Shown piece by piece: positions 42,101-61,230 of a DNA stretch of 64,000 nucleotides. Position 1 is the first letter of the stretch. The number at the start of each line of letters is the position of its first letter. A model generated the notes under the pieces. The model had not been told where the DNA came from, did no database searches, and worked only from the letters and a program-made list of their open reading frames with translations. The DNA comes from Ralstonia sp. NFACC01. GTDB taxonomy: Bacteria > Pseudomonadota > Gammaproteobacteria > Burkholderiales > Burkholderiaceae. The DNA is taken from positions 806,001-870,000 of the forward strand of contig NZ_FOWV01000001.1 in assembly GCF_900115545.1 (NCBI RefSeq), written 5' to 3'. The position numbers were made by a program, and so were the translations under genes.

Positions 42101-42115
42101 ATAACCCCAAGTTAT
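42101..42115. promoter_or_regulatory. Palindrome ATAAC-N5-GTTAT overlapping the pcaQ start
   Basis: A perfect dyad that contains a T-N11-A LysR box and resembles the ATAACC-type site reported for PcaQ of Sinorhizobium (spacing differs by a base). It includes the first two bases of the pcaQ ATG, which fits strong autorepression. Confidence 0.6.
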
Positions 42116-43058: not shown

Positions 43059-43072
43059 GCCGCCTCGCCCTC

Positions 43073-43100
43073 AAAAAAAATGCCGACCCCATGGCCGGCA
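43073..43100. terminator. Bidirectional terminator between pcaQ and the symporter
   Basis: An A-run, TGCCGACC-ccat-GGCCGGCA (one mismatch), and a T-run. It is placed between two convergent genes and works for both. Confidence 0.88.
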
Positions 43101-43121
43101 TTTTTTATTTCGGTGCGCAGA

Positions 43122-44804: not shown

Positions 44805-45860
44805 TTAGAACGAGTGAACGATACCGGTGTAGGCACCCAGTTGGTTCTTACCCGGCGCCGGGTTGTTGTTGGTCGCCTCCACCGAGAAATTGGCGGTGGC
44901 GCTGTTCTGCACGGTGCCCACGCTCGCGTACAGCATCGTGCGCTTGGACAGGTTGTAGTTGGCACCCGCCATGAACAGATTGGCGTTGCCGCCGCCGTGG
45001 TTGACGTTGACGCGGTACGCCGCGCCGATCAGCGTCAGCGCCGGCGTAACTTCGTAGTTGATGCCCAGCCAGTAATGATTGGCCTTGGTCGGGGCACCGG
45101 CAGCCGCATCCGGTGCCGACAGGTTTTCATACGCAGCAAACAGCTTCGCCTTGCCGATGGTGTACGTACCGCCGATCGTCGCTTCCTTCGAGAAATTGAA
45201 GATGTCGCTGAACTTGCCGTTGCCGTCGCGGATCACGTCGTAGATCGCGCGCACTTCCAGCGGGCCGGCCGTGTAGACAGCGGATACGCCATCGCGGCGG
45301 CTGTTCGTGAAGGAGCCAGGCTGCTCGCCCAGGCCGGTCTGCAGGCCGATCTGGAAGCCGCCCCAGGTGGGGCTTTGATATTCGACGATGTTGTTCGCGC
45401 CCGGCCAGTTGCGCCCGCGCACCAGCGTGGCCGAGCCGATGAACTGTTGGCCCGTCGGGTCCAGGAACCAGACGTCGTTGCTGATGAAGAGGTTCTTGCC
45501 GGCCGTCAACGTGCCCCAGGTCGGGCTGGACAGGCCGACGTACGAACGGCGGTTGAAGAGCGCATCGCCGTTGGTTTTGCCCTGGGCCGCGCCAAAGCCG
45601 GACTCCAGCCGGAAGACCGCCTGCAGGCCACCGCCCAGATCCTCCTTGCCCATGAACCCGAACATGCTCGTGCCCCACTGGTTGTCGGCGGCGCGCCAGA
45701 GGCTGCCGCCTGGCGAGGTCGCGGTGGGGGCGACGTTGTTCTGGTAGTCGATGCCGCTGGCGACGCGGCCGTACAGCGTGACGTTGGTTTGTGCATGCGC
45801 GGCGCCAGCGGCCGCGCACACGATTGCCGCGCACAGCGGCCAAGTTACTCGTTTCTTCAT
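44805..45860 (-). CDS. Outer-membrane porin, OmpC-like, 351 aa
   Basis: A typical Burkholderiales general porin of the Gram-negative porin family. Signal peptide with cleavage after AHA at 23. The mature start is QTNVTLYGRVASGIDY, and the C-terminus ends in a phenylalanine (IVHSF), the outer-membrane insertion signal. Strands like RRSYVGLSSPTWGTLTAGK are diagnostic. As the last gene of the L-fucose operon it probably lets the sugar or oligosaccharides cross the outer membrane. Confidence 0.93.
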   Translation of the reverse strand: MKKRVTWPLCAAIVCAAAGAAHAQTNVTLYGRVASGIDYQNNVAPTATSPGGSLWRAADNQWGTSMFGFMGKEDLGGGLQAVFRLESGFGAAQGKTNGDALFNRRSYVGLSSPTWGTLTAGKNLFISNDVWFLDPTGQQFIGSATLVRGRNWPGANNIVEYQSPTWGGFQIGLQTGLGEQPGSFTNSRRDGVSAVYTAGPLEVRAIYDVIRDGNGKFSDIFNFSKEATIGGTYTIGKAKLFAAYENLSAPDAAAGAPTKANHYWLGINYEVTPALTLIGAAYRVNVNHGGGNANLFMAGANYNLSKRTMLYASVGTVQNSATANFSVEATNNNPAPGKNQLGAYTGIVHSF

Positions 45861-45908
45861 TGTCTTCTCCTCTCTCTGGTGTCATGCCGGCCACGGCCGG
45901 AATTGCTT

Positions 45909-46253
45909 CTACTGCGGTTGCTGCTGCAAATCGAAAATGCGGCTCATCGGTATCCACTTCTGCCCCGCGGGCGTCCAGGGGGTGGGCGCCTGAAACTGCC
46001 ACATCAGCGCTTCCCATTCGCGGATCTTCGGGTCCGTGTCGGTGGCAAGCGCCATGCGCTCGGCGTCGTAGATGGCGTCGTCGGTCTCCATGAGCATCAC
46101 CATGCGGGTGCCCAGTCGATAGATCTCCATGCCCGTCACACCGTGCTCGCGCAGGTGGCGGGCGACTTCTGGCCAGATGCGTTGATGGTGGGCTTCGTAC
46201 GTGGCGATGAGCGCCGCGTCGTCTTTCAGATCCAGAGCAAGGCAGTAGCGCAT
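45909..46253 (-). CDS. rhaM: L-rhamnose mutarotase family protein, 114 aa
   Basis: A small dimeric alpha/beta-barrel protein that interconverts sugar anomers. The family signature is clear: LKDDAALIATYEAHHQRIWPEV, GVTGMEIYRLGTRMVMLME and the C-terminal FQAPTPWTPAGQKWIPM. In this operon its substrate is more likely L-fucose (or L-galactose) than L-rhamnose: it would supply the anomer used by the dehydrogenase whose gene ends 7 bases upstream. Confidence 0.92.
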   Translation of the reverse strand: MRYCLALDLKDDAALIATYEAHHQRIWPEVARHLREHGVTGMEIYRLGTRMVMLMETDDAIYDAERMALATDTDPKIREWEALMWQFQAPTPWTPAGQKWIPMSRIFDLQQQPQ

Positions 46254-46260
46254 GGCAGCC

Positions 46261-47040
<780 letters not shown>

Positions 47041-47937
47041 TCAAGCCTTGAGTTGCAGGTTGTAGCAGCGGGCGGCGGTACCACCCCAGAGATTGGCGCG
47101 TTCGGTGGCGCTCACTCGCTCTTCGGCCCAGACATGCAGCACGTCGTACACCGTGCCGTACGACGCCGCCAATTGGCACACCGGCCAATCCGACCCAAAC
47201 ATCACGCGGTTGGGACCGAAGACATCGAGTGCAACGTCAAGGCATTGGCGCGCGTGCTGAACGTCGCGCACGGTCACGCCCTTTCGCCAGTCGGCTTCGG
47301 TCAGCAGGCCGGAGAGCTTGCAGGAGACGTGCGGCATGTCCTTGAGCGGCGCAAGTGTGGCCCGCCAGCGTGCAAGGGCTTGCGCGTCACGCTCGAACGC
47401 TTCAAGCGGTGGCTTGCCGAGGTGGTCCAGCACCAACAAGTGACGATCGTGCCGGCCGCAGAAATCCACAGCGGGCTCCAGTTGGTGACCGAACACCAGC
47501 ACGTCGTACGTGTAGCCCCAGAGTTGCAGCAACGCGACGCCCTGCTCGAATGCCGGGTTCGACAAAAATGCGGCAACGTCCGGCTCGTCCTGCACGGTGT
47601 GCCGGAAGCCAACCAGCTTGTGCTCGCCGCTCCGGGCTTCAAGGCGGGCCTCAAGATCGGCGGCATGCAGGTCTTCCCAGCCGACCACGCCGACAATCCA
47701 GTCGTGCTCGGCAGCGAGGCCGAGCAGAAAATCCGTCTCCTCCCGCACACCGCGCGCCTGCACGGCAATCGCAGCGTCCAGGCGTTGTGCGCGCAGCTCT
47801 GGCAGCAGGTCGGCAGGCAGACGGTCTTCGGCCAGGGCTTCCATGCCGGGGCCGATCCATGAATACGCCCCGGGTTGATAGCGCCAGAAATGCTGGTGCG
47901 CGTCTATTCGTGGCACGGGCAGCGCAGGGTCCGTCAT
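47041..47937 (-). CDS. Amidohydrolase family, L-fucono-lactonase, 298 aa
   Basis: An amidohydrolase-2 (COG3618) lactonase. Metal ligands start in RIDAHQHFW near residue 10, with later VLDHLGKPP near 190 and FGSDWPV near the end (D of the last strand). It hydrolyses L-fuconolactone to L-fuconate. The ATG at 47937 follows the dehydratase stop by 4 bases; the TTG at 47967 would overlap that gene by 26 bases and is less likely. The context within the L-fucose operon supports the assignment. Confidence 0.88.
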   Translation of the reverse strand: MTDPALPVPRIDAHQHFWRYQPGAYSWIGPGMEALAEDRLPADLLPELRAQRLDAAIAVQARGVREETDFLLGLAAEHDWIVGVVGWEDLHAADLEARLEARSGEHKLVGFRHTVQDEPDVAAFLSNPAFEQGVALLQLWGYTYDVLVFGHQLEPAVDFCGRHDRHLLVLDHLGKPPLEAFERDAQALARWRATLAPLKDMPHVSCKLSGLLTEADWRKGVTVRDVQHARQCLDVALDVFGPNRVMFGSDWPVCQLAASYGTVYDVLHVWAEERVSATERANLWGGTAARCYNLQLKA

Positions 47938-47941
47938 CGCA

Positions 47942-49219
47942 TCAGCCCCGGAAGCGGTATTGCTCAAGCGATGCCGGCTTCATCGTGATGGAGAAACCCG
48001 GTGCCTGCGGCGGAAGATAGGCCGCATTGCGCACCACGCACGGATCGACAAAGTGCTCGTGCAGGTGGTCGACATACTCGACAACACGCCCTTCGCGCGT
48101 CCCTGACACGCAGATGTAGTCGATCATCGACAGATGCTGCACGTACTCGCACAGGCCCACACCGCCGGCATGCGGGCACACCGGCAAGCCGTACTTGGCG
48201 GCCAGCAGCAACACGGCCAGGATCTCGTTCACACCGCCCAGCCGGCACGCGTCGATCTGCACGACATCGATGGCGCCGCGCATGATGAACTGCTTGAAGA
48301 GAATGCGGTTCTGGCACATCTCGCCGGTCGCCACCTTGACGGGGGCAACCGCTTCGCGCACCGCGCGGTGCCCTTCCACGTCGTCCGGGCTGGTCGGCTC
48401 TTCAATGAACCACGGCTTGGCGAAACCGAGTTCGCGCACCCAGTCAATGGCCTCCTTGACCTCCCAGACCTGGTTGGCATCGATCATCAACTCGCGGTCC
48501 GGCCCAAGCACTTCGCGTGCGATCGAGACCCGGCGAATATCGTCCTTCAGATCACGCCCCACCTTGAGCTTGATATGGCGGAAACCGCTGTCGACGGCCT
48601 CGCGGCAGAGGCGGCGCAGCTTGTCATCGTCGTAGCCGAGCCAGCCGGCGGACGTGGTGTAGCACGGGTAGCCTTCCTGCTCCAGCGTGCGGATGTGCTC
48701 GGCCTTGCCCGGCGCTTGCTTGCGCAGCAGTTCAAGCGCTTCTTCGGGCGTGATGCCGTCCGTGATGTAGCGGAAGTCGATGCAGCGCACGAACTCTTCG
48801 GGCGTGAGATCGGCCACCAGGCGCCAGAGCGGCTTGCCTTCGGCCTTGGCCCACAGATCCCAGGCAGCATTCACGACGGCGCCCGTCGCCAGATGAATGG
48901 CGCCCTTGTCCGGGCCGATCCAGCGCAACTGGCTGTCCGACGTGACATGGCGCCAGAAGCGGCCCATGTCTTCACGAATCCAGTCGAGGTCGAGCCCTTC
49001 CACCAGATGATGCATCGCCGCGATGGCGGCGCAGCACACCTCGTTGCCGCGACCGATCGTGAAGGTCAGGCCGTGGCCTTCCAGGCCCGGCTGGTCAGTC
49101 TCGAGGATCACGTAGGCCGCGGAGTAATCCGGGTCCGGATTCATCGCGTCAGAGCCGTCGAGATGCTGCGAGGTCGGGAAGCGCACGTCCAGCACGCGCA
49201 GGGATCGGATGATGGTCAT
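47942..49219 (-). CDS. fucD: L-fuconate dehydratase (enolase superfamily), 425 aa
   Basis: It dehydrates L-fuconate to 2-keto-3-deoxy-L-fuconate. It starts with the diagnostic LRVLDVRFPTSQHLDGSDAMNPDPDYSAAYV and has the KxK catalytic pair (HIKLKVGR), then metal-binding D-E-E in LMIDANQVW, WFIEEPTSPDD, and the PVKVATGEMCQNR region. Length fits the mandelate-racemase subgroup FucD. Known relatives also act on L-galactonate and D-arabinonate. Confidence 0.95.
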   Translation of the reverse strand: MTIIRSLRVLDVRFPTSQHLDGSDAMNPDPDYSAAYVILETDQPGLEGHGLTFTIGRGNEVCCAAIAAMHHLVEGLDLDWIREDMGRFWRHVTSDSQLRWIGPDKGAIHLATGAVVNAAWDLWAKAEGKPLWRLVADLTPEEFVRCIDFRYITDGITPEEALELLRKQAPGKAEHIRTLEQEGYPCYTTSAGWLGYDDDKLRRLCREAVDSGFRHIKLKVGRDLKDDIRRVSIAREVLGPDRELMIDANQVWEVKEAIDWVRELGFAKPWFIEEPTSPDDVEGHRAVREAVAPVKVATGEMCQNRILFKQFIMRGAIDVVQIDACRLGGVNEILAVLLLAAKYGLPVCPHAGGVGLCEYVQHLSMIDYICVSGTREGRVVEYVDHLHEHFVDPCVVRNAAYLPPQAPGFSITMKPASLEQYRFRG

Positions 49220-49253
49220 GAGTATCGTGTTCGGGATTGCGGAATGCGTGCTT

Positions 49254-50114
49254 TCAGCCTTGCGCGTTCACCGTGCGCTGGCGCTGCTCGCCCAGACCCT
49301 CGATGCCCAGGCGCATCGTCTGGCCGGCGCGCAGATAGACCGGCGGCTTCTGCCCCAGCCCCACGCCCGGCGGCGTGCCGGTGGAAATCACATCGCCAGG
49401 TTGCAGGCTCATGAAGCGGCTCAGATAGCTCACCAGATGCGCCACGCCAAACACCATGGTCGACGTCGATCCGTTCTGGTAGCGATGTCCATCCACCTCC
49501 AGCCACAGATGCAACGCTTGCGGGTTGGGCACCTCGTCTGCAGTCACGAGCCACGGGCCGATGGGGCCAAAGGTGTCGCAGCCCTTGCCCTTGTCCCACG
49601 TGCCGCCGCGCTCGAGCTGGTATTCGCGCTCCGACACATCGTTGATGACGCAGTAGCCCGCCACGTGCGCGAGCGCATCAGCCTCGCTGATGTATCGGCC
49701 GCCCTTGCCGATCACCACACCAAGCTCGACTTCCCAATCGGTCTTCACCGAGCCCTGCGGAATTTCCACATCATCATTGGGGCCGCAGATGGCGCTGGTC
49801 CATTTGCCGAAGACGACCGGCTCGGCCGGCACTTCGGCACCCGTCTCAGCGGCGTGGTCGGAATAGTTCAGCCCGATGCAGATGAACTTGCCGACGTTGC
49901 CCACGCAGGCGCCCAGGCGCAGGCCCGCTTGCGGCGTGCCATCGACGATGGGCAGTCGGCTGATGTCCAGCGTGCGCAGGTGAGCGAGGCTCTCGGGCAG
50001 CAGCGCCGCGCCGCCAATGTCGTCAATCACGGCTGACAGGTCGCGCACTTGCCCTTGCGCATCGAGCAGGCCGGGCTTTTCCTGGCCCTTGGGGCCGTAG
50101 CGGAGGAGTTTCAT
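49254..50114 (-). CDS. 2,4-diketo-3-deoxy-L-fuconate hydrolase (FAH family), 286 aa
   Basis: A fumarylacetoacetate hydrolase family enzyme. Core segments: FICIGLNYSDHAAETGAEVP, the metal-binding DWEVELGVVIGKGGR and GKGCDTFGPIGPW, and the final GDVISTGTPPGVG. In this operon it would cleave 2,4-diketo-3-deoxy-L-fuconate to pyruvate and L-lactate. The ATG at 50114 begins at the family N-terminus (MKLLRYG). The alternative annotation ureidoglycolate lyase is common for this family but not supported here. Confidence 0.9.
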   Translation of the reverse strand: MKLLRYGPKGQEKPGLLDAQGQVRDLSAVIDDIGGAALLPESLAHLRTLDISRLPIVDGTPQAGLRLGACVGNVGKFICIGLNYSDHAAETGAEVPAEPVVFGKWTSAICGPNDDVEIPQGSVKTDWEVELGVVIGKGGRYISEADALAHVAGYCVINDVSEREYQLERGGTWDKGKGCDTFGPIGPWLVTADEVPNPQALHLWLEVDGHRYQNGSTSTMVFGVAHLVSYLSRFMSLQPGDVISTGTPPGVGLGQKPPVYLRAGQTMRLGIEGLGEQRQRTVNAQG

Positions 50115-50150
50115 CGTGTTGTCTTTGTGGACTGCAATCAATCAAACCAA

Positions 50151-50900
50151 TCAGTTGGACCAGCCGCCGTCGATCACGCAGCAGGTACCGGTCGTGAAGC
50201 GGGACTCATCCGAAGCCAGGTAGGTCGCCAGCGCGGCAATCTCGTCTGCCGTGCCGACGCGACCCATCGGCTGGCGCGCAACGAAGGCCGCACGGATGGT
50301 GTCAATCGACACGCTCTGTTCCTGCGCCTGCGCGGCAATGCGCTGCTCGAGCGACGGAGACTCCACCGTGCCCGGGCAGATGGCGTTGCAGCGGATGCCG
50401 CGCGCCACAAAGTCGGCGGCAATAGCCTTGGTCATGCCAATGACGGCAGCCTTGGTCGTGCCATACACGAAGCGGTTCGGCACGCCCTTCACGCTTGATG
50501 CGGCGGAGGCCATGTTGATGATCGATGCGCCGCCGTTGTCCAGCATCTTCGGCAACAGCGCACGCGTCAGGCGGTACATCGACGTCACGTTGAGCTGCCA
50601 CGAGAACGCCCAGTCGTCTTCCGAACATTCGAGGATGCTGCCGGGATGCACGAAGCCCGCGCAGTTGAACAGCGCATCGAACGCGGCTTCTTCGCGCGCA
50701 AGGACGGCAACGGCATTGGCGTCCGTCACGTCCAGGCGCAAGGTGCGGACACCGGCGGTCTCTGCCAGCGTGGCCAACGCCTCTGCGTTGATATCGGTGG
50801 CGAGCACCTGCGCGCCCTCTCTTGCAAACATCATCGCGCTGGCCCGGCCAATACCCTGCCCGGCCGCCGTCACGAGGATGCGTTTTCCTTGGAGTCTCAT
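50151..50900 (-). CDS. 2-keto-3-deoxy-L-fuconate dehydrogenase (SDR family), 249 aa
   Basis: A short-chain dehydrogenase. Cofactor motif TAAGQGIG at 11-18, NAG replaced by the NCAG motif, active site Y146-x-x-x-K150 (FVYGTTKAA). It matches the human DHRS6-like/bacterial KDF 4-dehydrogenase branch (KGVPNRFVYGTTKAAVIGMTKAIAADFV), oxidising the C4 hydroxyl of 2-keto-3-deoxy-L-fuconate. The ATG at 50900 starts at the family N-terminus. A second SDR, L-fucose dehydrogenase, lies downstream; the two have different cores. Confidence 0.9.
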   Translation of the reverse strand: MRLQGKRILVTAAGQGIGRASAMMFAREGAQVLATDINAEALATLAETAGVRTLRLDVTDANAVAVLAREEAAFDALFNCAGFVHPGSILECSEDDWAFSWQLNVTSMYRLTRALLPKMLDNGGASIINMASAASSVKGVPNRFVYGTTKAAVIGMTKAIAADFVARGIRCNAICPGTVESPSLEQRIAAQAQEQSVSIDTIRAAFVARQPMGRVGTADEIAALATYLASDESRFTTGTCCVIDGGWSN

Positions 50901-51040
50901 TGCGTCTGCGTTCCGGGGCGGACCACGTTGGCGGTGGCCCATTCCGGCAATGGAGTTAAAACACTGCGCCGTTCAGGAAAGGGATTCAGCCGGCATGGCG
51001 GCGAACGACGCTCCGCCACGCCCCTTGTTGCGATGATTCG

Positions 51041-51988
51041 TCAGTACAGAACGTTCTTGGCCTCGGGCGAATCCAGGTTCTGCTTGTTGACCATCATCAC
51101 GCCCGTGTCGACCTGCTTCTGCACGGGCTTCTTCTCGATCACGCTGACGACCGTCTCGATGCCCTTGTAGCCCATCTGGTACGAGCTTTGGACGGCAATT
51201 GCGCGAATCGTGCCGTCGCGCACGAAGCCCTGCAGATCCTGGTTGCCGTCAAAGCCGATGGCCGCCACCTTGCCGCTCTTTCCCGACTGCTGCAGCGCGC
51301 GCCCCATCCCGACCGCCGTCGGTTCGTTCGCACCGAAAATGCCCTTCAGATCAGGATTGGCGGCCAGCACATCCGTCGTCTGGTTCAGCGCCGTAGCCAT
51401 TTGCGATTGCGAGTAGAACGGCCCAACGATCTGCAGCTTCGAGTGCGCCTCGATGTATTTCTTGAAGCCGCCCACTCGGCCGATTTCAGACCCCGCGCCC
51501 GGCACATAAGACATGATCGCGATCTTGCCAGTCTGGCCCACGGCCTCGATCATCGCCTTCGCGCACAACTCCCCCGCCTTCGCGTTATCCGTCGACAGGA
51601 ACGACTGGTAATACTGCTTGCCGGAGTCGGACACCATCGAGTCGATCAGCACCACCGGAATGTGGGCTTCCCAAGCCTTCTTCATCGCCGGTACCAGCGC
51701 ATCCGGGTCCGACGGTGCGAGGACAATGCCTGCGACATGCCGGTTCACGGCGTTCTCGACCATGTTCACTTCGTCGGCAATGGCCGATTCTGCTGCGGGC
51801 CCCTGGAAGGTCATCGTGTAGCCCTTCGCGTTGCCCATGGCGGCTGTCGCGCCTTTCTGAACGTTCTGCCAGTAGTTGGAATTTGCCGATTTCACGATCA
51901 CGGCAATTTCACCGCCTGCCGCCTGCGCATAAGCAGAGAACAGTGCACACGTTGCTGCAACCACCGCCAGTACGGAAAACTTCTTCAT
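51041..51988 (-). CDS. Sugar ABC transporter substrate-binding protein, 315 aa
   Basis: A periplasmic type I sugar-binding protein (RbsB-like). Signal peptide to about residue 23 (AYAQAAG). The mature part has IAVIVKSANSNYWQNVQKGA, the IVLAPSDPDALVPAMKKA hinge region, and FGANEPTAVGMGRAL. It has a good AAGGAGTGAG ribosome site. Within the operon it most likely binds L-fucose or a related sugar. Confidence 0.93.
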   Translation of the reverse strand: MKKFSVLAVVAATCALFSAYAQAAGGEIAVIVKSANSNYWQNVQKGATAAMGNAKGYTMTFQGPAAESAIADEVNMVENAVNRHVAGIVLAPSDPDALVPAMKKAWEAHIPVVLIDSMVSDSGKQYYQSFLSTDNAKAGELCAKAMIEAVGQTGKIAIMSYVPGAGSEIGRVGGFKKYIEAHSKLQIVGPFYSQSQMATALNQTTDVLAANPDLKGIFGANEPTAVGMGRALQQSGKSGKVAAIGFDGNQDLQGFVRDGTIRAIAVQSSYQMGYKGIETVVSVIEKKPVQKQVDTGVMMVNKQNLDSPEAKNVLY

Positions 51989-52023
51989 GTCTCACTCCTT
52001 GGTTTTGGTTTGAACTGCTCGAC

Positions 52024-53055
52024 TCACAACTTGCGGTTTCTGAGCTGATCGATCCAGACGGTGCCAAGGATGACCACGCCGATGATGATCTGCTGGATAA
52101 AACTCGATACGCCGTTCATGTTGAGCCCGTTGCGCAACACCCCGATCACGAACGCGCCAATGGCCGTGCCCGAGACCGTTCCGACACCGCCCATCAGCGA
52201 CGTCCCGCCGATCACGGCACTGGCAATCGCATCAAGCTCGTACATCACGCCTTCGTTCGGCTGCGCCGTCACGAGGCGAGACATCAGCACGCAGCCGGTC
52301 ATCCCGGCCAGCAAGCCCGACAGCACATACGTGAACAGCTTCACGCCCTGCACGTTCACGCCGGACAGGCGCGCCGCCTCGGCGTTCGAGCCGACTGCGT
52401 AGATGTGGCGACCCAGTGAAGTGCGGGAGAGCAGCACAGAGACGGCAATGAACAGCGCAAGCATGATCACCACCGGGTAAGGAATGCCGGGGAAGACCGT
52501 GTCCGGAAAGCCGTCTGCGCCGATGTGCGAGATGCGGAACAGCGCGCCGTTGCCGAGTTCGCCGAAGGCGTCCCCCAAGCCCGAGACCGGACGGGCACCC
52601 GTGATCTGCAGCGCCAGTCCGCGCGCGACCAGCATCATGCCGAGCGTGGCAATGAATGGCGGCAGGCCCATCCGCGTGATGCAGATACCGTTGACCCATC
52701 CGCACATGGCACCAACGGCCACACCGGCCAGCATGGCAATCGGAACCGGCACGCCCATCTTCACGAGCAATGCGGCCACGACGCCGGAAAGCGCCAGCAC
52801 TGAGCCCACCGACAGATCGATGCCACCGGTGATGATCACGCACGTGGCGGCCACACCCAGGTAGGCAATCGACGTGACTTGCAGCGCGACGGTCATGAAG
52901 TTGCCGACCGAAAAGAACGCTGCGCTGGTGGCGGAAAACGCAATCACAAGCGCCACGAGGCTACCGAGCGCCGCAAACTTCTGGATCAAATCCCGATGGT
53001 GTTGCTTGCGCTGCGTTTTCACGGCCTGCGGCTGATCTGATGTCATTTCAAGCAT
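52024..53055 (-). CDS. Sugar ABC transporter permease, 343 aa
   Basis: A ribose-type (RbsC-like) inner-membrane permease with 8-10 helices. Conserved segments: IAYLGVAATCVIITGGIDLSVGSVLALSG and VGSNAEAARLSGVNVQGVKLFTYVLSGLLAG. The ATG at 53055 overlaps the ATPase stop by 8 bases; the ATG at 53046 is an alternative. The overlap implies coupled translation. Confidence 0.93.
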   Translation of the reverse strand: MLEMTSDQPQAVKTQRKQHHRDLIQKFAALGSLVALVIAFSATSAAFFSVGNFMTVALQVTSIAYLGVAATCVIITGGIDLSVGSVLALSGVVAALLVKMGVPVPIAMLAGVAVGAMCGWVNGICITRMGLPPFIATLGMMLVARGLALQITGARPVSGLGDAFGELGNGALFRISHIGADGFPDTVFPGIPYPVVIMLALFIAVSVLLSRTSLGRHIYAVGSNAEAARLSGVNVQGVKLFTYVLSGLLAGMTGCVLMSRLVTAQPNEGVMYELDAIASAVIGGTSLMGGVGTVSGTAIGAFVIGVLRNGLNMNGVSSFIQQIIIGVVILGTVWIDQLRNRKL

Positions 53056-54595
53056 GTGTTCGTCCTGATGCGTAATGCAGAATTTCTTCCTGGTTTGTCT
53101 TCCGTGTTTCCAGGACTGCGGTAATGCGGCCTTCGTGAAAGACGGCAATTCGATCTGTCATGCCCAGCAGTTCTGGCAGCTCCGAGCTGATCAGCACGAC
53201 TCCGACACCGTCCGCGGCGAGTTCGTCCATCAGCCCATAAATCGCGTACTTGGCGCCGACGTCGATGCCCCGCGTCGGTTCATCGAAAAACAGGATGCGC
53301 GAACCGCGATACAGCCATTTGCCGATCACGATCTTCTGTTGATTGCCGCCCGAGAGATTGCGCACCATCTGCCCGACGGACGGCGTGCGGATGTTCAGCT
53401 CGCGCACGTAGCGCTGTGCCACGGCGGTCTCTTCGGAAAAGCGCAGGAAGCCATGCGATGAAATCGCCCGGACATTGGCCAGGGTGATATTCACGGCCAC
53501 CGGCATCGACAACGCCAGACCGTCCTTCTTTCTGTCTTCCGACAGGTAGGCAATACCTTGGCGGATAGCCTCGCGCGGGGAGCGGATCGTGACCGGCGTG
53601 TCGCCGAGCATGATCGACCCGGAATCGAGCCGTTCCGCACCAAAAATGGCCCGCGCCACCTCCGTGCGGCCCGCGCCCATCAGGCCGGCAAAACCGAGAA
53701 TCTCGCCCTTGCGCAACTCGAACGACACCGGCCCGAAGACGCCCGCCCGGCTCAGTGCGTTCACGCGTAACAACACCTCGTCGGTCGGCACCGATTTGCG
53801 CGCCGGGAACACATCGTCGAGTGAGCGCCCGACCATCCGCGCGACGATCTCGTTGACACTGGTGGAAGCGAAATCGCTCGTGGCGATATGGCGGCCGTCA
53901 CGCAGCACCGTCACCCGATCAACGATCTCGGCCATCTCATCCAGCCGGTGCGAGATGTAGAGAATCGCCACGCCATCGGCGCGCAACTCCTTGATGATGC
54001 GAAACAGCTGAACGGTTTCGGATTCCGTGAGCGAAGACGTGGGCTCGTCCATGATCAGCACACGCGCGTTGAGCGAGAGCGCCTTGGCAATCTCCACCAT
54101 CTGTTGCTGAGCAATCGACAGCGCGCTAACCAGCGTGGTCGGCTCGACGGCCAGCCCGATCCGCTGCAGATAGCTCCGTGCATTGGTGTTGAGCTTGCGG
54201 TAATCAATGAACGGGCCGCGCTTGGGCTCGCGCGCCAGGAAGATGTTCTCTGCCACCGACAGATGCGGCACGAGATTCAGCTCCTGATGGATGATCGCAA
54301 TGCCGGCCGCCTGCGCCTCGGATGTCGAGGTGAAGCGCACCGCCTCGCCGCGGTAATTGATGGCACCATCGTCTGCCGTGTACTGGCCGCTGATAATCTT
54401 CATCAGGGTGGATTTGCCGGCACCGTTTTCGCCGCAGACGGCATGGACTTCGCCCACGCGCAGATCCAGATCGACGCCATCCAGCGCAACAACGCCGGGA
54501 AAGCGTTTGCCGATGCGCTGCAAGCAAAGAATCTCTTGCGGCATCGACGATCTGGAGCTGCTTACGTGCGTAGGCACGGCATCAGCACTGCTCAT
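53048..54595 (-). CDS. Sugar ABC transporter ATP-binding protein, 515 aa
   Basis: A double-domain RbsA/MglA-type ATPase. Domain 1 has Walker A GENGAGKST, signature SIAQQQMVEIAKAL and Walker B VLIMDEPTSSLTESE. Domain 2 lacks a normal P-loop (GLMGAGRTEVARA), as usual in this family, and has LSGGNQQKIVIGKWL and FFDEPTRGIDVG. The ATG at 54595 has GGAG upstream and gives an N-terminal tail of about 17 residues. It is the first gene of the ten-gene operon. Confidence 0.94.
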   Translation of the reverse strand: MSSADAVPTHVSSSRSSMPQEILCLQRIGKRFPGVVALDGVDLDLRVGEVHAVCGENGAGKSTLMKIISGQYTADDGAINYRGEAVRFTSTSEAQAAGIAIIHQELNLVPHLSVAENIFLAREPKRGPFIDYRKLNTNARSYLQRIGLAVEPTTLVSALSIAQQQMVEIAKALSLNARVLIMDEPTSSLTESETVQLFRIIKELRADGVAILYISHRLDEMAEIVDRVTVLRDGRHIATSDFASTSVNEIVARMVGRSLDDVFPARKSVPTDEVLLRVNALSRAGVFGPVSFELRKGEILGFAGLMGAGRTEVARAIFGAERLDSGSIMLGDTPVTIRSPREAIRQGIAYLSEDRKKDGLALSMPVAVNITLANVRAISSHGFLRFSEETAVAQRYVRELNIRTPSVGQMVRNLSGGNQQKIVIGKWLYRGSRILFFDEPTRGIDVGAKYAIYGLMDELAADGVGVVLISSELPELLGMTDRIAVFHEGRITAVLETRKTNQEEILHYASGRTHA

Positions 54596-54685
54596 CGTGG
54601 TCTCCGTTGTGTTGCGAGGCTCTGATCTTCCGCTCGGCGCACTGGTAAGTCCAGTTCGGATCGATTCGAATAAGCCAAGCATTTT

Positions 54686-54698
54686 TTGGTCAAGCCAA
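54686..54698. promoter_or_regulatory. Operator-like TTGGTC-A-AGCCAA upstream of the transporter operon
   Basis: Near-palindrome in the 245 bases between the divergent ATPase and GntR genes. It shares TTGGTCNNNCCAA with the site at 55727-55741 and fits the FadR-type form TGGTNNNACCA with one mismatch. A half-site TGACCA follows at 54721-54726. Confidence 0.55.
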
Positions 54699-54840
54699 TA
54701 TCACTTACAACACACCTGCCTGACCACTAGTGCAAACCCTGAACTGTTGCTGACACCAGTCTAGACAACGGCTGGCGGTGCCCATGCTAGACTCGAAGCA
54801 CATCCATGCGCGGCAACGCCCGCGCCAAAAAACACACACG

Positions 54841-55548
54841 ATGAAGCAGACAGAGCCAAAGCGGCTTTACCAATCTGTAGCCGCGCAGATTCTCGCGCTG
54901 ATCCAACAGGAAAAGCTCGGACCGGGCACACGCTTGCCTCCCGAGCGCGAACTGGCGCAGACGCTGGGCGTATCGCGCCCGTCGTTGCGCGAGGCGTTGA
55001 TCGCCCTGGAGATTGGCGGCCAGGTTGAGATCCGCATGGGTTCTGGGGTGTACGTGCAAGACGCAAGCGCGGCGAGCGAGAGTGCGGCCATTCCGTCGCT
55101 GGGCGAAAGCCCCTCCGAACTGATGCAGGCCCGGGCCGTTCTTGAAGGCGACGTGATCACGCTCGCCACGGGGCGCCTGACGGCGGCCACGCTCGACAAG
55201 CTCCAGCGCACCATCGACCGCATGAAGAAACTCGCATCGGGGGGGAAGTCGCCCACCGACGCCGACCGCCAGTTCCACATGCTGATTGCAGAGACCGCCG
55301 GCAATTCGGTCCTCAGCCGATTCGTGGCCGAGCTGTTCGATAGTCGCCATGACCCGCTGGCCATGGCCATCCGCGACCATGCGGAGGGCGAATCAAGCTG
55401 GCATGCGGCCGTGCATGAGCACGAAGAGATTCTCAAGGCGCTGCAGGCGGGCGACCCCATCGCGGCGCAAACCGCCATGCGGGCGCACTTGAAAGCGTCC
55501 GAAGAGCGCTGGATTGCGGGCGCCATTCAGCAAGACAGCGCGCAGTAA
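54841..55548 (+). CDS. GntR family regulator, FadR/FCD type, 235 aa
   Basis: The N-terminal winged helix is clear: LPPERELAQTLGVSRPSLREALIALEIGGQVEIRMGSGVYV at about 32-72, followed by an FCD effector domain (LMQARAVLEGDVITLATGR, DRQFHMLIAETAGNSVL, HAAVHEHEEILKAL), with metal-binding D and H residues typical of sugar-acid sensors. It lies between the L-fucose operon and the altronate operon and probably represses both, with a pathway acid as inducer. The ATG at 54841 starts at the family N-terminus. Confidence 0.92.
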   Translation: MKQTEPKRLYQSVAAQILALIQQEKLGPGTRLPPERELAQTLGVSRPSLREALIALEIGGQVEIRMGSGVYVQDASAASESAAIPSLGESPSELMQARAVLEGDVITLATGRLTAATLDKLQRTIDRMKKLASGGKSPTDADRQFHMLIAETAGNSVLSRFVAELFDSRHDPLAMAIRDHAEGESSWHAAVHEHEEILKALQAGDPIAAQTAMRAHLKASEERWIAGAIQQDSAQ

Positions 55549-55953
55549 CGGCCCTCACCGCATGCGCGGCTCCCCGCGGCCGCGCGGTCCTTCCCCGGCA
55601 CCCACGCCGCTCCCGCCCCAATGCGGCCTGACCAAATTTCGGGCCGTCTCGCCTTGACCCCTTGAAAACAAGGGATTTCCTGCCCTCAGGGTTTCCCCCA
55701 TCAAGGAATTTCCCGCAAGATGTTAAATTGGTCTGACCAATAGGTGAGGCCTGTTTGGCATGACCAGTTGCTGTAGACGAAGGCTGTCTCCTTCAACTTG
55801 GTGCAGTACACGCGCGCAATCAAACCTCACCGCATCCACTCAAGGAGACCGGAAGGTGACCCACTGTTTGCCATCGCCACGCGCCCATACACAACTTCTC
55901 CAACGGCTCCGTCACGCGGAGACTGGCGACGCCGCTTCTGCCGGAGCCGCATC
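55549..55953. other. 405-base regulatory gap upstream of the altronate operon
   Basis: No gene is seen. It holds the perfect operator dyad at 55727-55741, a half-site TGACCAA at about 55630, and several similar A/T-centred GGGATTTCC / GGAATTTCCC repeats at 55672-55714. It should contain the operon promoter; TTAAAT at 55723-55728, next to the dyad, is a candidate -10 element. The GGAG ribosome site of the next gene lies at its right end. Confidence 0.55.
55727..55741. promoter_or_regulatory. FadR-type operator ATTGGTC-T-GACCAAT
   Basis: A perfect 7+1+7 palindrome containing TGGTCTGACCA, the TGGTNNNACCA form bound by FadR-family GntR proteins. It lies 179 bases after the GntR stop and about 213 bases before the dehydrogenase start, overlapping a possible -10 element. 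Confidence 0.75.
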
Positions 55954-56961
55954 ATGCTGACGGTCGTTTGCGAAACACCAGGCACCCTGCTCGCGCTCGA
56001 CCGCCCGGTCCCCACCCCTGCCGAGGGCGAGGTGCTGCTGCGCGTCAAACGCGTTGGTGTGTGCGGGACCGATCTGCACATCTTCACGGGCAATCAGCCT
56101 TACCTCAATTACCCGCGCGTGATGGGGCATGAGCTGTCGGGCATCGTCGAACAGGCGCCGGCCGGCAGCACGCTGGCCAAGGGCGACGTGGTCTACGTGA
56201 TGCCCTACCTGTCATGCGGGCACTGCGTCGCGTGCCGCCAGGGCCGGACAAACTGCTGCGTCAATATCCAGGTGCTGGGGGTGCATCGCGACGGGGCGTT
56301 CACTGAATACCTGAGCGTGCCGCAAGCCTTCGTGCACAGGGCGGACGGCGTGAGTTTGGATCAAGCTGCGATGGTGGAATTTCTGGCCATTGGCGCCCAC
56401 GCGGTGCGTCGTGCACAGGTGCGAGCCGGGCAGCGCGTGCTGGTGGTAGGCGCTGGCCCTATCGGCATGGCCGCCATGATCTTTGCCAAACTGCGCGGCG
56501 CGGTGGTCACGGCGCTGGACTCCCGTGCAGATCGCCTCGCCTTTGCAGTGGAGCAACTTGGTGTGGATGCCAGCGTTGCACTGGGCGATACCGACGAAGT
56601 ACAACTCGCCGCGCTTACAGGCAACGAGTTTTACGACGTCGTCTTCGATGCCACGGGCAATCCGAAAGCCATGGAGCGCGGCTTGCGTTTCGTGGCGCAC
56701 GCCGGCACCTATGTGCTGATCTCTGTGGTAGCGGCGAACATCTCGTTCTCCGATCCGGAATTCCACAAACGCGAGACCACGCTGCTCGCCAGCCGCAACG
56801 CCACCACGGAAGATTTTGAGACTGTGCTCGACGCCATGCGCGCGGGCAAGATTCCGGCCGCGCTGAACACCCACCGCATGGCGCTGGCAGACGTGCCCGA
56901 GCACTTCAAGACACTGCTCGACCCCGCCGCTGGCGTGGTGAAAGCCATCGTGGAGTGCTGA
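55954..56961 (+). CDS. Zinc alcohol dehydrogenase, probably L-galactonate 5-dehydrogenase type, 335 aa
   Basis: A medium-chain zinc dehydrogenase. Catalytic zinc residues are C37, H59 and E60 (GVCGTD, GHE); structural zinc cysteines are C88, C91, C94 and C102. The NAD-binding GAGPIG lies near 165. The neighbours (tagaturonate-type reductase and altronate dehydratase) point to oxidation of L-galactonate to D-tagaturonate, as by LgoD; L-gulonate or another polyol acid is an alternative. GGAG lies about 10 bases before the ATG. Confidence 0.88.
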   Translation: MLTVVCETPGTLLALDRPVPTPAEGEVLLRVKRVGVCGTDLHIFTGNQPYLNYPRVMGHELSGIVEQAPAGSTLAKGDVVYVMPYLSCGHCVACRQGRTNCCVNIQVLGVHRDGAFTEYLSVPQAFVHRADGVSLDQAAMVEFLAIGAHAVRRAQVRAGQRVLVVGAGPIGMAAMIFAKLRGAVVTALDSRADRLAFAVEQLGVDASVALGDTDEVQLAALTGNEFYDVVFDATGNPKAMERGLRFVAHAGTYVLISVVAANISFSDPEFHKRETTLLASRNATTEDFETVLDAMRAGKIPAALNTHRMALADVPEHFKTLLDPAAGVVKAIVEC

Positions 56962-56965
56962 GCGC

Positions 56966-58093
56966 ATGACCGAGCCGATCCTCCAGTTCGGCACAAGCCG
57001 CTTCCTGCAGGCGCACGTCGACTTGTTCGTGTCGGAAGCGCTCGATGCGGGGCAAGCGCTGGGTGGGATAACCGTCGTTCAGACCACATCCAACCCCGCC
57101 AGCGCAGCGCGTGTGGCGGCGCTGGCAGGCGGTGAGGGTTATCCGGTGCGCATTCGCGGTTTGCAAGACGGCGCACCCATTGATCAGACCGTCACGTGCT
57201 GCGCTGTGCAACGCGCCCTTCAGGCCGAGGCCGACTGGGAACAGCTGCGCGAGCTCATGGCAAGAGACGTGCAGGTGGTGATTTCCAACACGGCCGACCA
57301 GGGCTACCAGCTCGACCCGCGCGATGATGCCAGCTTGATCAAGCAGCCATCGCGCGTGCCACACAGCTTCCCCGCCAAACTGGTGGCGCTGCTGCTCGGC
57401 CGCTGGCTGCGGCAGCCGCAGGCACCGCTGTCGCTGTTTCCGTGCGAACTGATCGAGCGCAACGGCGACACGCTCTGCGAGACGGTCTGCTCGCTGGCAC
57501 AGCAATGGGCACTGCCCGCCGCGTTCGTCGATTGGCTGCGCACGCATTGCATCTGGGCGAATTCGCTCGTAGACCGCATCGTCTCCGAGGCATTGCACCC
57601 CGTGGGCGCCGTGGCAGAACCGTACGCGCTGTGGGCCATCGAGCGCCGGCCCGGGCTGGTGCTGCCATGCACGCATCCGGCCATCGTGCTGACGGATGAG
57701 CTGGATCATCACGAGCGGCTCAAGCTCTTTCTGCTCAACGCGGGCCACACCTTTCTGGCCGAGCGTTGGCGCGAAGATGCGCATCCCGCCGATCTGACCG
57801 TCGTGCAGGCCATGGAAGACCCGCGCCTGCGGCCGGAGCTGGAAGCCCTGTGGCGCGACGAGATCGTTCCTGTATTCGCCGCCCTGCACAAGCGCGAGGC
57901 CGCCGCGGCCTATCTCGTCTTGCTGCGAGAACGGCTGTTGAACCCTTACCTTGCCCACCGCCTCGCCGACATCGCGCAGAACCACGCGCAGAAGAAGCAG
58001 CGGCGCCTGGCACCCATCGTCGCGCTGACGCGGCAATTGGGCTTGCACCTCGCCCAGCCGCGCCTGAATGCCGCGCTGGCCAATCCGAATTGA
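56966..58093 (+). CDS. Mannitol dehydrogenase family protein, tagaturonate reductase-like, 375 aa
   Basis: It belongs to the polyol-specific long-chain dehydrogenase family (UxaB, UxuB, mannitol dehydrogenase). N-terminal FGTSRFLQAHVDLFV, middle WANSLVDRIV and the catalytic-region LKLFLLNAGHTFLAE are typical. It is shorter than E. coli UxaB (about 480). In front of uxaA it would reduce D-tagaturonate to D-altronate with NADH. It begins 4 bases after the zinc dehydrogenase stop. Confidence 0.87.
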   Translation: MTEPILQFGTSRFLQAHVDLFVSEALDAGQALGGITVVQTTSNPASAARVAALAGGEGYPVRIRGLQDGAPIDQTVTCCAVQRALQAEADWEQLRELMARDVQVVISNTADQGYQLDPRDDASLIKQPSRVPHSFPAKLVALLLGRWLRQPQAPLSLFPCELIERNGDTLCETVCSLAQQWALPAAFVDWLRTHCIWANSLVDRIVSEALHPVGAVAEPYALWAIERRPGLVLPCTHPAIVLTDELDHHERLKLFLLNAGHTFLAERWREDAHPADLTVVQAMEDPRLRPELEALWRDEIVPVFAALHKREAAAAYLVLLRERLLNPYLAHRLADIAQNHAQKKQRRLAPIVALTRQLGLHLAQPRLNAALANPN

Positions 58094-58107
58094 ACCTGCG
58101 AAGCACC

Positions 58108-59619
58108 ATGTCCGACTCATCCATCATTCTTCTTGCCCCCGACGACGACGTAGCCGTCGCGCGTGTTGCGCTAGCGCCCGGCGCGGCACTTGACGCTGCG
58201 GTGACCACGCGCGATGCCATTCCCGCCGGCCACAAGGTCGCGTTGCGCGACATCGCAGTGGGGCAGCCGGTGCACAAGTATGGGCAGGTCATCGGCGTGG
58301 CCACAGCGCCCATCCGCATGGGTGAGCACGTGCACGTACACAACGTCGGCATGGCCAACTCCGCCGTCGAGCACACTGTGGGCCACGCGTATCGCGCCAC
58401 CGTGCCGGTCGACACGCCCGCCACGTTCGAAGGGTACGTGCGGGCAGATGGCCGCGTCGGCACGCGCAACTTCATCGGCGTCATCGCCAGCGTCAACTGC
58501 TCTGCCACCGTGTGCCGGCATATCGTGCAGGCGGCGCAGGCAGAGGTGGCCGCGTTCCCCAACGTGGATGGCGTTGTCGCCATCACGCACGGCAGCGGCT
58601 GCGGCATGGCCGGTAACGGCGAGGGGCTGGAACTGCTGCAGCGCACGCTGCGCGGCTACGCCGACCACCCCAACTTTGCCGGCGTGCTGATCGTTGGCCT
58701 GGGTTGCGAGGTCAATCAGGTGGCACCGCTCGTGCAGATGCTGGGGGCACGGACGCCAGGCTTGTTTGCCTCGCTGACGATCCAGGAAGAAGGCGGCACG
58801 CGTGAGGCGATTGCTGCCGGCTTGGCCATGCTGCGCGACATGCTGCCGATCGCGAACCAGGTGCAACGCAGCACCGTCCCGGCAAGCCACTTGACGGTAG
58901 GCCTGCAATGCGGCGGGTCGGACGGCTATTCCGGCATCAGCGCCAACCCTGCGCTGGGCGCCGCGGTGGATTTGCTTGTGCGACACGGAGGCACCGCAGT
59001 GCTATCTGAAACACCCGAGATCTATGGCGCAGAACATCTGTTGACTGCACGCGCCGCAACGCCTGCCGTGGCCGATGCGTTGATGAAACGGTTGGCCTGG
59101 TGGGAGCACTACACCAGCACGCTGGGCGCCGACATGAACAACAACCCTTCGCCCGGCAACAAGGCCGGCGGCGTCACGACCATCCTGGAAAAATCGCTCG
59201 GCGCGGTCGCCAAGGGCGGCAGCAGCGGGCTGATGGCCGTGTATGAATACGCCCAGCCTGTGCAGGCGCACGGCCTCGTCTTCATGGACACACCCGGCTA
59301 CGACCCTGTCTCAGCCACGGGTCAAGTTGCAGGTGGCGCCAACCTGATCTGCTTCACAACGGGCCGCGGGTCCACCTATGGCTGCAAGCCGGTGCCCTCC
59401 TTGAAGCTGGCTACCAACAGCACGCTTTTCCGGCACATGGAGCTGGATATGGATTACGACTGCGGCGGCATCGTCGATGGCCGCCTCAGCATTGCACAGG
59501 CCGGCCAGGCGCTGTTCCAACTGATGCTGGCCACAGCGTCGGGCGACCACACCAAGAGCGAACTCAACGGCCTGGGCGACAACGAGTTCGTACCCTGGCA
59601 GCTTGGTGCGGTGATGTAA
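58108..59619 (+). CDS. uxaA: Altronate dehydratase UxaA, 503 aa
   Basis: An iron-dependent UxaA family dehydratase converting D-altronate to 2-keto-3-deoxy-D-gluconate. N-terminal SAF domain (about 1-105), then GRVGTRNFIGVIASVNCSATVC, TGSGCGM-type loop THGSGCGMAGNGEGLELL, and the C-terminal QCGGSDGYSGISANPA, ETPEIYGAEHLL and FTTGRGSTYGCKPVP; the cysteines of these loops are kept. Length is normal. It ends 6 bases from the convergent DUF2182 gene. The D-galactarate branch (GarD) is similar but context favours altronate. Confidence 0.92.
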   Translation: MSDSSIILLAPDDDVAVARVALAPGAALDAAVTTRDAIPAGHKVALRDIAVGQPVHKYGQVIGVATAPIRMGEHVHVHNVGMANSAVEHTVGHAYRATVPVDTPATFEGYVRADGRVGTRNFIGVIASVNCSATVCRHIVQAAQAEVAAFPNVDGVVAITHGSGCGMAGNGEGLELLQRTLRGYADHPNFAGVLIVGLGCEVNQVAPLVQMLGARTPGLFASLTIQEEGGTREAIAAGLAMLRDMLPIANQVQRSTVPASHLTVGLQCGGSDGYSGISANPALGAAVDLLVRHGGTAVLSETPEIYGAEHLLTARAATPAVADALMKRLAWWEHYTSTLGADMNNNPSPGNKAGGVTTILEKSLGAVAKGGSSGLMAVYEYAQPVQAHGLVFMDTPGYDPVSATGQVAGGANLICFTTGRGSTYGCKPVPSLKLATNSTLFRHMELDMDYDCGGIVDGRLSIAQAGQALFQLMLATASGDHTKSELNGLGDNEFVPWQLGAVM

Positions 59620-59625
59620 GGCAAG

Positions 59626-60399
59626 TCATGGCAACGCGGCGGAAGCCAACTGGAGCAACCCCGCCACGATCGCCACAGCACCAATGCAGCGGGCTACGCG
59701 GTCACCGGCGGGCGCCAGGCGCTCCAGCGTGATCGCCGCTGACACCGCGGCCATTGCGCGCAGATCCATGACGCCGATCACAAGGAGGATTGCCGTGAGG
59801 CCCGCGCAAGAGCAGGCGCAGCGCATGCCGAGGCGCAAGCCATATCGCCACGCTGTACTGCCCAGTGCAGGCGCCGTTCGGCACCCTGCAAGCTGCCGCG
59901 CCTTCCATGCGCTGAACTGCAGTGCACCGGCCGCAAGAACGACTGCACCGCTGGTAGCCGGCAACGCGCGCGCCAGCACGGGCCACGTCATTTCAAGCTG
60001 GGCCACCGCGGCGCCCAGCGCAAAGACCATCGCGCCGATCAGCCCCCACACGGCAAAGTACGCCGTGCCTGCCAACGCGGTGTGCGCATCAACATCCGGC
60101 TTGCCCGTCATGTGAAGCGCAACGCGATACCGCCGCAGCATCGGCAGTAAAGACGGCAGCATCATCGCCACCATCATCACCGTCCACATACCAATGAAGG
60201 ACGCGGCAAAACTCCACCACGTCTGACCGCACATCGGCATCCACGCCATCGGCATCGCGGCCATGGCCGGCATGGCGTCGCACCAGGCCACCGTCGCTGC
60301 CGTGCTGGCGATGAACAGCAATGCCGAGACGGCCAGGAAGCCGCGCTCGGACACTGCATGCTCGCGTGGCAGCTCAACGCTGCTGAGCGTACTCGTCAT
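59626..60399 (-). CDS. DUF2182 membrane protein, 257 aa
   Basis: A DUF2182 (predicted metal-binding integral membrane) protein with about 6-7 helices. The characteristic segments are WWSFAASFIGMWTVMMVAMMLPSLLPMLRRY, with many methionines, and LGMRCACSCAGLTAILLVIGVM near the end. The methionine- and cysteine-rich helices suggest copper or another metal, but nothing is proven. The ATG at 60399 lies inside the DUF899 gene (26-base overlap), so the two are coupled. Confidence 0.88.
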   Translation of the reverse strand: MTSTLSSVELPREHAVSERGFLAVSALLFIASTAATVAWCDAMPAMAAMPMAWMPMCGQTWWSFAASFIGMWTVMMVAMMLPSLLPMLRRYRVALHMTGKPDVDAHTALAGTAYFAVWGLIGAMVFALGAAVAQLEMTWPVLARALPATSGAVVLAAGALQFSAWKARQLAGCRTAPALGSTAWRYGLRLGMRCACSCAGLTAILLVIGVMDLRAMAAVSAAITLERLAPAGDRVARCIGAVAIVAGLLQLASAALP

Positions 60400-61144: not shown

Positions 61145-61230
61145 GCTTGCCTCCGTTTTGAGTGAGTGGTCGTGTGCTAGATTAGGCGCCGACCTCAAAT
61201 GGCGGGAGTGACAAGTGTGGCGGGATTCGA

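Follow-up and report, generated by a model that had tools for sequence, protein, structure and literature searches.

The 64,000-nt stretch of the Ralstonia sp. NFACC01 genome analysed here (the window; contig NZ_FOWV01000001.1, positions 806,001 to 870,000) carries, at its positions 44805-59619, two divergent gene sets, one for non-phosphorylating degradation of L-fucose and the other with the features expected for degradation of L-galactonate. All 14 genes named in a preliminary description of the stretch are present. Ten of them lie on the minus strand (44805-54682), with intergenic gaps of no more than 98 bp and in the order ATPase, permease, binding protein, fucF, fucG, fucC, fucB, fucA, fucM, porin, so that the operon described there, consisting of a sugar ABC (ATP-binding cassette) transporter, five L-fucose enzymes, a mutarotase and a porin, is found entire. 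On the plus strand gntR, which encodes a GntR/FCD regulator, is followed after a gap of 402 bp by the genes for a zinc dehydrogenase, a 375-aa mannitol-dehydrogenase-family protein and a UxaA/GarD-family dehydratase. The regulator and divergent three-gene operon are also as described, and this trio fits conversion of L-galactonate via tagaturonate and D-altronate to 2-keto-3-deoxygluconate (KDG). The locus is probably one regulon for two L-sugars, L-fucose and L-galactose, with transporter, regulator and first enzymes in common, with routes that split at the aldonate, and with an origin in the joining of two clusters.

Table 1. Genes and predicted operators of the proposed L-fucose/L-galactonate locus, with positions in the window
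Feature	Position	Strand	Evidence
porin, last gene of L-fucose operon	44805..45860	-	Pfam Porin_4 194.9 bits; same place in fuc-only L121/L122, 69-71%
fucM, sugar mutarotase (RhaM family)	45909..46253	-	Pfam rhaM 99.5 bits
fucA, L-fucose 1-dehydrogenase	46261..47037	-	NF052481 444.9 bits vs cut-off 300 (NCBIfam equivalog)
fucB, L-fucono-1,5-lactonase	47041..47967	-	NF052480 465.7 bits vs cut-off 400 (NCBIfam equivalog)
fucC, L-fuconate dehydratase (enolase superfamily)	47942..49219	-	phmmer: 4ip4, 2hne
fucG, 2,4-diketo-3-deoxy-L-fuconate hydrolase (FAH family)	49254..50114	-	phmmer 8gsr E 1.3e-93; Pfam FAA_hydrolase
fucF, L-2-keto-3-deoxyfuconate 4-dehydrogenase; possible KDG dehydrogenase	50151..50942	-	62% to 8y11
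sugar-binding protein of ABC transporter, L-galactose-cluster type	51041..51988	-	Peripla_BP_4; tree
ABC permease	52024..53148	-	BPD_transp_2; real start probably downstream of listed TTG
ABC ATPase, first gene of operon	53048..54682	-	ABC_tran, two stretches
predicted GntR operator before ABC/fuc operon	54686..54698		TTGGTCAAGCCAA
gntR/FCD regulator (UxuR-like)	54841..55548	+	FCD and GntR domains
predicted GntR operator before lgoD operon	55728..55740		TTGGTCTGACCAA; weaker second copy at 55755
lgoD-like L-galactonate 5-dehydrogenase (zinc-type)	55951..56961	+	ADH_N and ADH_zinc_N; 44.5% to E. coli LgoD
uxaB-like, predicted tagaturonate reductase (short, 375 aa)	56966..58093	+	best NCBIfam family tagaturonate reductase
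predicted D-altronate dehydratase (UxaA/GarD family)	58108..59619	+	GD_AH domains and SAF

In the scheme proposed, the one ABC transporter would import L-galactose as well as L-fucose, and FucM, FucA and FucB would convert either sugar to its aldonate, with FucA oxidising L-galactose too and FucB acting also on L-galactonolactone. Both enzymes could act on L-galactose and L-fucose alike, because C6 is the only position at which the two sugars differ (L-fucose is the 6-deoxy sugar). L-fuconate would then be degraded by FucC, FucF and FucG in turn, with pyruvate and L-lactate as the products. On the other branch, the LgoD-like enzyme would oxidise C5 of L-galactonate to give D-tagaturonate, from which the UxaB-like enzyme would make D-altronate by reduction; loss of water, catalysed by the UxaA-like enzyme, would then yield KDG. 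This sequence amounts to an inversion at C5 followed by dehydration.

A full set of FucA, FucB, FucC, FucF and FucG, as judged by homology, is present in one cluster, as in the route 3 L-fucose pathway of X. campestris, H. huttiense and A. avenae, and the FucM of that pathway also has its counterpart in Ralstonia. The transporter and regulator, being of the type found in L-galactose clusters, are unlike those of route 3 systems. FucC matches best 4ip4 and then solved L-fuconate dehydratases, and the top match of FucG is the L-2,4-diketo-3-deoxyrhamnonate hydrolase 8gsr (its NCBIfam score, 421.9 bits, is under the cut-off of 500). FucM scores 21.3 bits with the NCBIfam rhamnose mutarotase model, under the cut-off of 99.6. 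FucF is 62% identical to the H. huttiense dehydrogenase of L-2-keto-3-deoxyfuconate (L-KDF), whose residues D41, R148, R192, R214 and W252, named by its authors for binding of NAD and substrate (PMC11199699, in excerpt), correspond to D50, R157, R201, R223 and W261 of FucF and are all kept. FucA shares 70% identity with the protein solved as 4gkb and 4gvx in the PDB, and 4gvx, B. multivorans FabG, acts on L-galactose (PMC6946681, in excerpt).

For the plus-strand trio, the zinc dehydrogenase fits an L-galactonate 5-dehydrogenase of the LgoD type, as its predicted protein is nearer E. coli LgoD (44.5% identity over 321 aa) than RspB (32.7%). The two proteins that follow are assigned at family level only, and both are under NCBIfam cut-offs. 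The UxaB-like protein is 29.8% identical to E. coli UxaB and 25.7% to UxuB, and contains K-x4-N-x2-H, which we take to be the catalytic motif of its family. In the UxaA-like protein, which at 403.7 bits is far under the cut-off (730.85) of the galactarate dehydratase model, the cysteines of the SVNC, SGCG, GLGCE and QCGGSD segments align with cysteines of 6u7l. Absence of the hexuronate isomerase UxaC had been taken in the preliminary description to set the trio apart from a galacturonate pathway. The absence stands, and extends from the window to the whole genome, where no UxaC match was found (control genomes were positive in 7 of 14 cases). The argument built on it does not stand and was discarded as evidence on the trio: because none of 349 genomes of the family has UxaC, its absence here is uninformative.

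Twenty stretches around fucC or uxaB, chosen by the authors from the family sample, were compared. The fuc-only operons L121 and L122 (genus g3) have exactly the gene order of the window, porin-fucM-fucA-fucB-fucC-fucG-fucF, with a transporter that differs from the window's (permease 30-32% identity, ATPase 34-36%). In three L-fucose-only stretches of g12 (L120, L123 and L124) the binding protein is only 30-31%, and GntR 32-36%, identical to that of the window. In the lgoD clusters L136 and L137, which have an aldo/keto reductase, and L138, which lacks it, the identities are 63-77% for gntR, 73-77% for the ATPase, 82-84% for the permease and 78-87% for the binding protein; over the aldo/keto reductase clusters and the reductase-less sister L138, those for the binding protein are 70-87%. 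In a maximum-likelihood tree of 33 binding proteins, fucC loci without lgoD (L120, L123, L124, L126, L128 and L129) split off at 100/99, and the six Ralstonia rows stand among those of lgoD clusters, at forks with values (92/92 and 94/93) that are under the tool's star mark. On the grounds of this tree and the locus identities, the transporter and regulator are by sequence of the L-galactose-cluster type, and the enzymes of the L-fucose type.

The aldo/keto reductase and second lactonase of the sister clusters are absent from the Ralstonia cluster. A single search of its own genome with the L068 aldo/keto reductase, done with no positive control and hence weak, gave no match. FucB is the best of three own-genome matches to the lactonase of the stand-alone clusters (41%, 152 bits, the others scoring 47 and 40 bits). 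As no such reductase was found and FucB is the best lactonase match, FucA and FucB would be the obvious suppliers of L-galactonate, though other dehydrogenases of the genome may supply it instead. The locus would then have arisen when an operon of L-fucose enzymes was joined to an L-galactose cluster that no longer had its own aldose dehydrogenase and lactonase, and it is in this direction that we infer the rearrangement to have run. For the fuller proposal, namely fusion by gene replacement in which the L-galactose cluster lent transporter, regulator and operators, with FucA and FucB feeding both branches and FucF and FucG perhaps retaking KDG, the chances seem evenly balanced.

Neighbourhoods of the zinc dehydrogenase gene were compared for the best 80 of 422 relatives (A. 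avenae is not among the 80), with genes scored as matching at 30% identity or more over at least 45% of the query; several contigs are short, and absences are to be read as lower bounds. The five nearest loci, four from Ralstonia and one from Burkholderiaceae bacterium 26, have a zinc dehydrogenase 95-97% identical to that of the window. Five of the 80 are of the Ralstonia type, fused with the fuc operon, and uxaB-like and uxaA-like genes follow in all five. An aldo/keto reductase gene precedes lgoD in nine loci (L029, L031, L044, L060, L067, L068, L073, L075 and L076) from Paraburkholderia, Rhizobacter, Roseateles and Azospirillum, which are stand-alone clusters of the L-galactose type; seven of the nine have a second lactonase, seven uxaB and three uxaA. 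A further nine have a sugar ABC transporter and uxaB without the reductase or uxaA. The remaining partners are an amino-acid-type ABC transporter with uxaB (21 loci, with no aldo/keto reductase detected), TRAP (tripartite ATP-independent periplasmic) transporter genes with uxaA (11 loci), uxaB and uxaA without a transporter (L005, L069 and L078), and uxaA with a distant uxaB (L017 and L020, the latter also having a distant ABC transporter and a fucF-like gene at 57%). Six of the 80 show fucC: the five Ralstonia-type loci and Roseateles L044. Pfam searches with ten proteins from L060, L068, L044 and L023 returned Aldo_ket_red, Amidohydro_2, rhaM, BPD_transp_1, SBP_bac_3, DctP, DctM and FAA_hydrolase. 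[In Azospirillum L060 (491-13697) a sugar ABC transporter, an acid-type ABC transporter, aldo/keto reductase, lactonase, mutarotase, lgoD, uxaB and uxaA lie in a single run. The SBP_bac_3-type ABC transporter beside lgoD-uxaB(-uxaA) in L050 (7005-13771) and 20 other loci is a predicted importer of L-galactonate or D-altronate.]

Such neighbourhoods bear on what the plus-strand operon is for. It could serve L-galactonate (or D-altronate) that enters the cell as the acid, in which case FucA and FucB would not be shared and the two operons would simply adjoin each other under a single regulator. The amino-acid-type ABC and TRAP loci are sugar-acid layouts of just this kind, and the operator considered below occurs in such clusters as well. 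However, the present locus has no acid-type transporter, and the transporter it does have is of the sugar type that in relatives is paired with the aldo/keto reductase, so that acid import is unlikely to be the explanation. It is very improbable that the true substrate of the LgoD-like enzyme is a different hydroxyl acid, for example L-gulonate or L-idonate, or else a 2-keto-3-deoxy acid acted on directly. That its gene stands with uxaA-like and fucG-like genes, with no uxaB detected, in L023 and L033, and without its usual partners in view in 20 of the 80 loci, would accord with such a substrate, but the enzyme is nearer LgoD than RspB, the two E. coli relatives compared, and the uxaB-like and uxaA-like genes are constant in the Ralstonia-type loci. 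[The 20 loci (L039, L040, L046, L047, L049, L051 and 14 others; 16 are from Caballeronia) have a zinc dehydrogenase 73-75% identical to the window's. L023 (4297-11011) and L033 comprise a TRAP transporter, a FucG-like hydrolase and uxaA-like and lgoD-like genes, with neither uxaB nor fucF detected, and are perhaps a sugar-acid route with a differently acting zinc dehydrogenase.]

Under the preferred reading, joint use of the two L-sugars, the two operons would be under common control, and a candidate operator stands before each. A palindrome at 55728 led to the pattern TTGGYNNNRCCAA, which occurs three times in the window as against 0.19 expected, three being reached in 1 of 100 shuffles. Two of the matches are upstream of operons, at 54686 (ABC/fuc) and 55728 (lgoD), and the third is at 50428, within fucF. 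The 5.37 Mb genome has the pattern at 48 places, compared with 13 for its reverse, and at that density the two intergenic regions have expectations of about 0.001 and 0.004 matches. An exact match precedes both operons in all five other Ralstonia-type loci, which are close relatives and not independent. Of 48 loci, 36 have the pattern upstream of a gntR homologue (all 5 of the Ralstonia type and 31 of the 43 others), with 0.16 expected and none for the reversed pattern, though the loci are related, further duplicates may remain and no nominal probability should be taken at face value. Initially the count stood at 37 of 57; seven without a match were then dropped, their upstream DNA being outside the locus, as were the duplicates L139 (a match, from the same genome as L004) and L137 (a miss). 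Roseateles L044 has no exact operator and no gntR was detected there; the five fuc-only stretches (L120-L124) contain two pattern matches, neither of them beside fucF, and each of three other copies inspected in the genome (L150-L152) is inside a called reading frame. The regulator is 36% identical to E. coli UxuR and 23% to LgoR. An operator of the ExuR/UxuR type with a 2-base spacer was considered and rejected, as its only match upstream of the ABC operon has 2 mismatches and there is none upstream of lgoD; a 3-base spacer fits. From the predicted operators we infer that a single GntR/FCD protein controls both operons. The joint use of L-fucose and L-galactose that the preliminary description had put forward thus draws support, at the level of prediction, from the L-galactose-type transporter and regulator, the shared operator and the missing reductase and lactonase.

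Nine of 16 genomes of the genus have a uxaB-like gene, and the same nine have fucC at 97-100% identity, the other seven having distant fucC-family matches alone (36% at most); since it is the same nine, the fuc/uxaB linkage is more than chance. The starts of fucC and uxaB are about 9 kb apart in eight of the nine. In the ninth (G013) a divergent uxaB (59%) is on a separate contig, and the gntR region (L134) is without the exact operator.

Two exits can be proposed for KDG: oxidation and cleavage by FucF and FucG, to pyruvate and D-glycerate, or phosphorylation by a kinase whose gene is outside the locus. The 4(S)-hydroxyl required by KDF dehydrogenase is present in KDG, and FucF/FucG may be the point at which the two routes rejoin, a possibility not considered in the preliminary description. 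For the kinase, seven of the eight PfkB proteins of the genome were scanned, and the best scored 186.7 bits against a KDG kinase cut-off of 400; other sugar-kinase families were not searched. The gene for this best-scoring PfkB is elsewhere in the genome, about 6 kb from that for a 2-keto-3-deoxy-6-phosphogluconate (KDPG) aldolase and near genes for a GntP permease and of D-amino-acid type. A different role for the Fuc enzymes would have FucC dehydrate most of the L-galactonate to L-2-keto-3-deoxygalactonate (L-KDGal), which FucF and FucG would take to pyruvate and L-glycerate, leaving the trio for another substrate. X. campestris FucD does have residual activity on L-galactonate, and L-KDGal is just 5.3-fold poorer than L-KDF as a substrate of the H. 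huttiense KDF dehydrogenase (PMC11199699, in excerpt). Yet this route leaves L-glycerate, and neither the position of the trio behind the same operator nor the aldo/keto reductase beside lgoD in related clusters would be explained, which makes it very unlikely.

Against a shared pathway for L-fucose and L-galactose, with its branch through D-altronate, several things have to be set. The C. jejuni homologue has low L-galactose activity and no effect on growth with that sugar (PMC6946681, in excerpt), and strict substrate specificity is reported for an L-fucose dehydrogenase from H. huttiense (PMC6336799). KDG may not return to FucF, because the H. huttiense KDF dehydrogenase, while it oxidises KDG, does so 105-fold less well than L-KDF (PMC11199699, in excerpt) and because of the PfkB gene near that for KDPG aldolase. 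The UxaB-like protein, for which tagaturonate reductase is the best NCBIfam family, scores 205.3 bits, under the cut-off of 359, and the UxaA-like protein is nearer E. coli GarD (39.6%, 305 bits) than UxaA (35.9%, 271 bits). ACAV_RS08155, a UxaA/GarD-superfamily dehydratase tied to L-galactose metabolism in A. avenae ATCC 19860, is called L-galactonate dehydratase, not D-altronate dehydratase, on unpublished data in PMC6336799; it is given as D-arabinonate dehydratase in PMC10079672 (in excerpt). Outside Ralstonia, just 3 of the 18 sugar-ABC loci show uxaA. It was in this window that the operator pattern was first noticed, and the pattern also precedes gntR in acid-transporter clusters, so that it is no mark of L-galactose. 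In the family sample (n=349; E 1e-60 or better for the uxaB-like gene, 1e-140 or better for fucC) a uxaB-like gene is present in 109 genomes and fucC in 143, both genes in 93, uxaB only in 16, fucC only in 50 and neither in 190, but these are raw counts uncorrected for phylogeny, and the fucC set beyond Ralstonia, mostly 83-91% or 57-67% identical, may not be of a single function. Close linkage of fucC and uxaB in that sample is confined to Ralstonia, barring five g12 genomes with a paralogue, as judged by eye outside Ralstonia from contigs whose fragmentation could conceal more. [In those five, L131 (G210) and four further g12 genomes, a second enolase-type FucC-like dehydratase, about 57% identical to the window FucC, directly adjoins the uxaB-like gene; L131 also carries a uxaA-like gene.]

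The chemistry of the L-galactose pathway is already known in kind. In A. avenae, as Watanabe, Fukumori and Watanabe reportedly described in 2019 (Mol Microbiol), two dehydrogenases convert L-galactonate to D-altronate by epimerisation at C5, and the route overlaps that for L-fucose. If locus tags step by 5, the interval from ACAV_RS08155 to ACAV_RS08210, the A. avenae ATCC 19860 L-KDF dehydrogenase (PMC11199699, in excerpt), would comprise 12 genes, on the pattern of Roseateles L044, which reads fucF, fucG, fucC, fucM, ATPase, permease, binding protein, aldo/keto reductase, lactonase, lgoD, uxaB, uxaA. Taken as a model for A. avenae, L044 has the aldo/keto reductase and another lactonase, with all genes on one strand and no gntR detected, whereas Ralstonia has FucA, a short-chain dehydrogenase/reductase, and FucB, with two operons around gntR. 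E. coli LgoD, UxaB and UxaA perform the three steps proposed for the Ralstonia trio, but the E. coli L-galactonate genes are far apart, and their regulator LgoR and symporter LgoT differ from the Ralstonia counterparts. We know of no step from L-galactose to L-galactonate in E. coli. The lgu cluster of Luteolibacter LG18, dual for L-glucose and L-galactose, has the same sequence from L-galactose through L-galactonate, tagaturonate and D-altronate to KDG; however, LguA is inactive on L-fucose, a KDPG aldolase is in the cluster and no L-fucose genes are described there (PMC12632266, in excerpt).

A search of literature titles and abstracts in a limited library gave no joint L-fucose/L-galactose locus in Ralstonia, no transporter exchange and no operator, and the excerpts of PMC12911387 (Variovorax) and PMC9007349 (pathway gaps) add nothing on L-galactose. 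Within that literature the merged architecture looks new. Plants and algae contain both L-fucose and L-galactose. Should the proposed reading be correct, the locus would be a clear natural example of promiscuous enzymes whose shared use became fixed through genome rearrangement; it would also predict the substrates of an ABC transporter, an operator motif for a GntR family found across many Burkholderiales and, next to lgoD in relatives, importers of sugar acids of the ABC and TRAP types.

Of the flanking genes, those for a PpoB2-family protein (a copper chaperone by Pfam) and a DUF899 protein adjoin the locus on the minus strand at 59626-61240, with no evident connection to it. Past the porin end, 42114-44510 encodes a PcaQ-like LysR regulator (314.8 bits, above the cut-off) and an SDF-family symporter.

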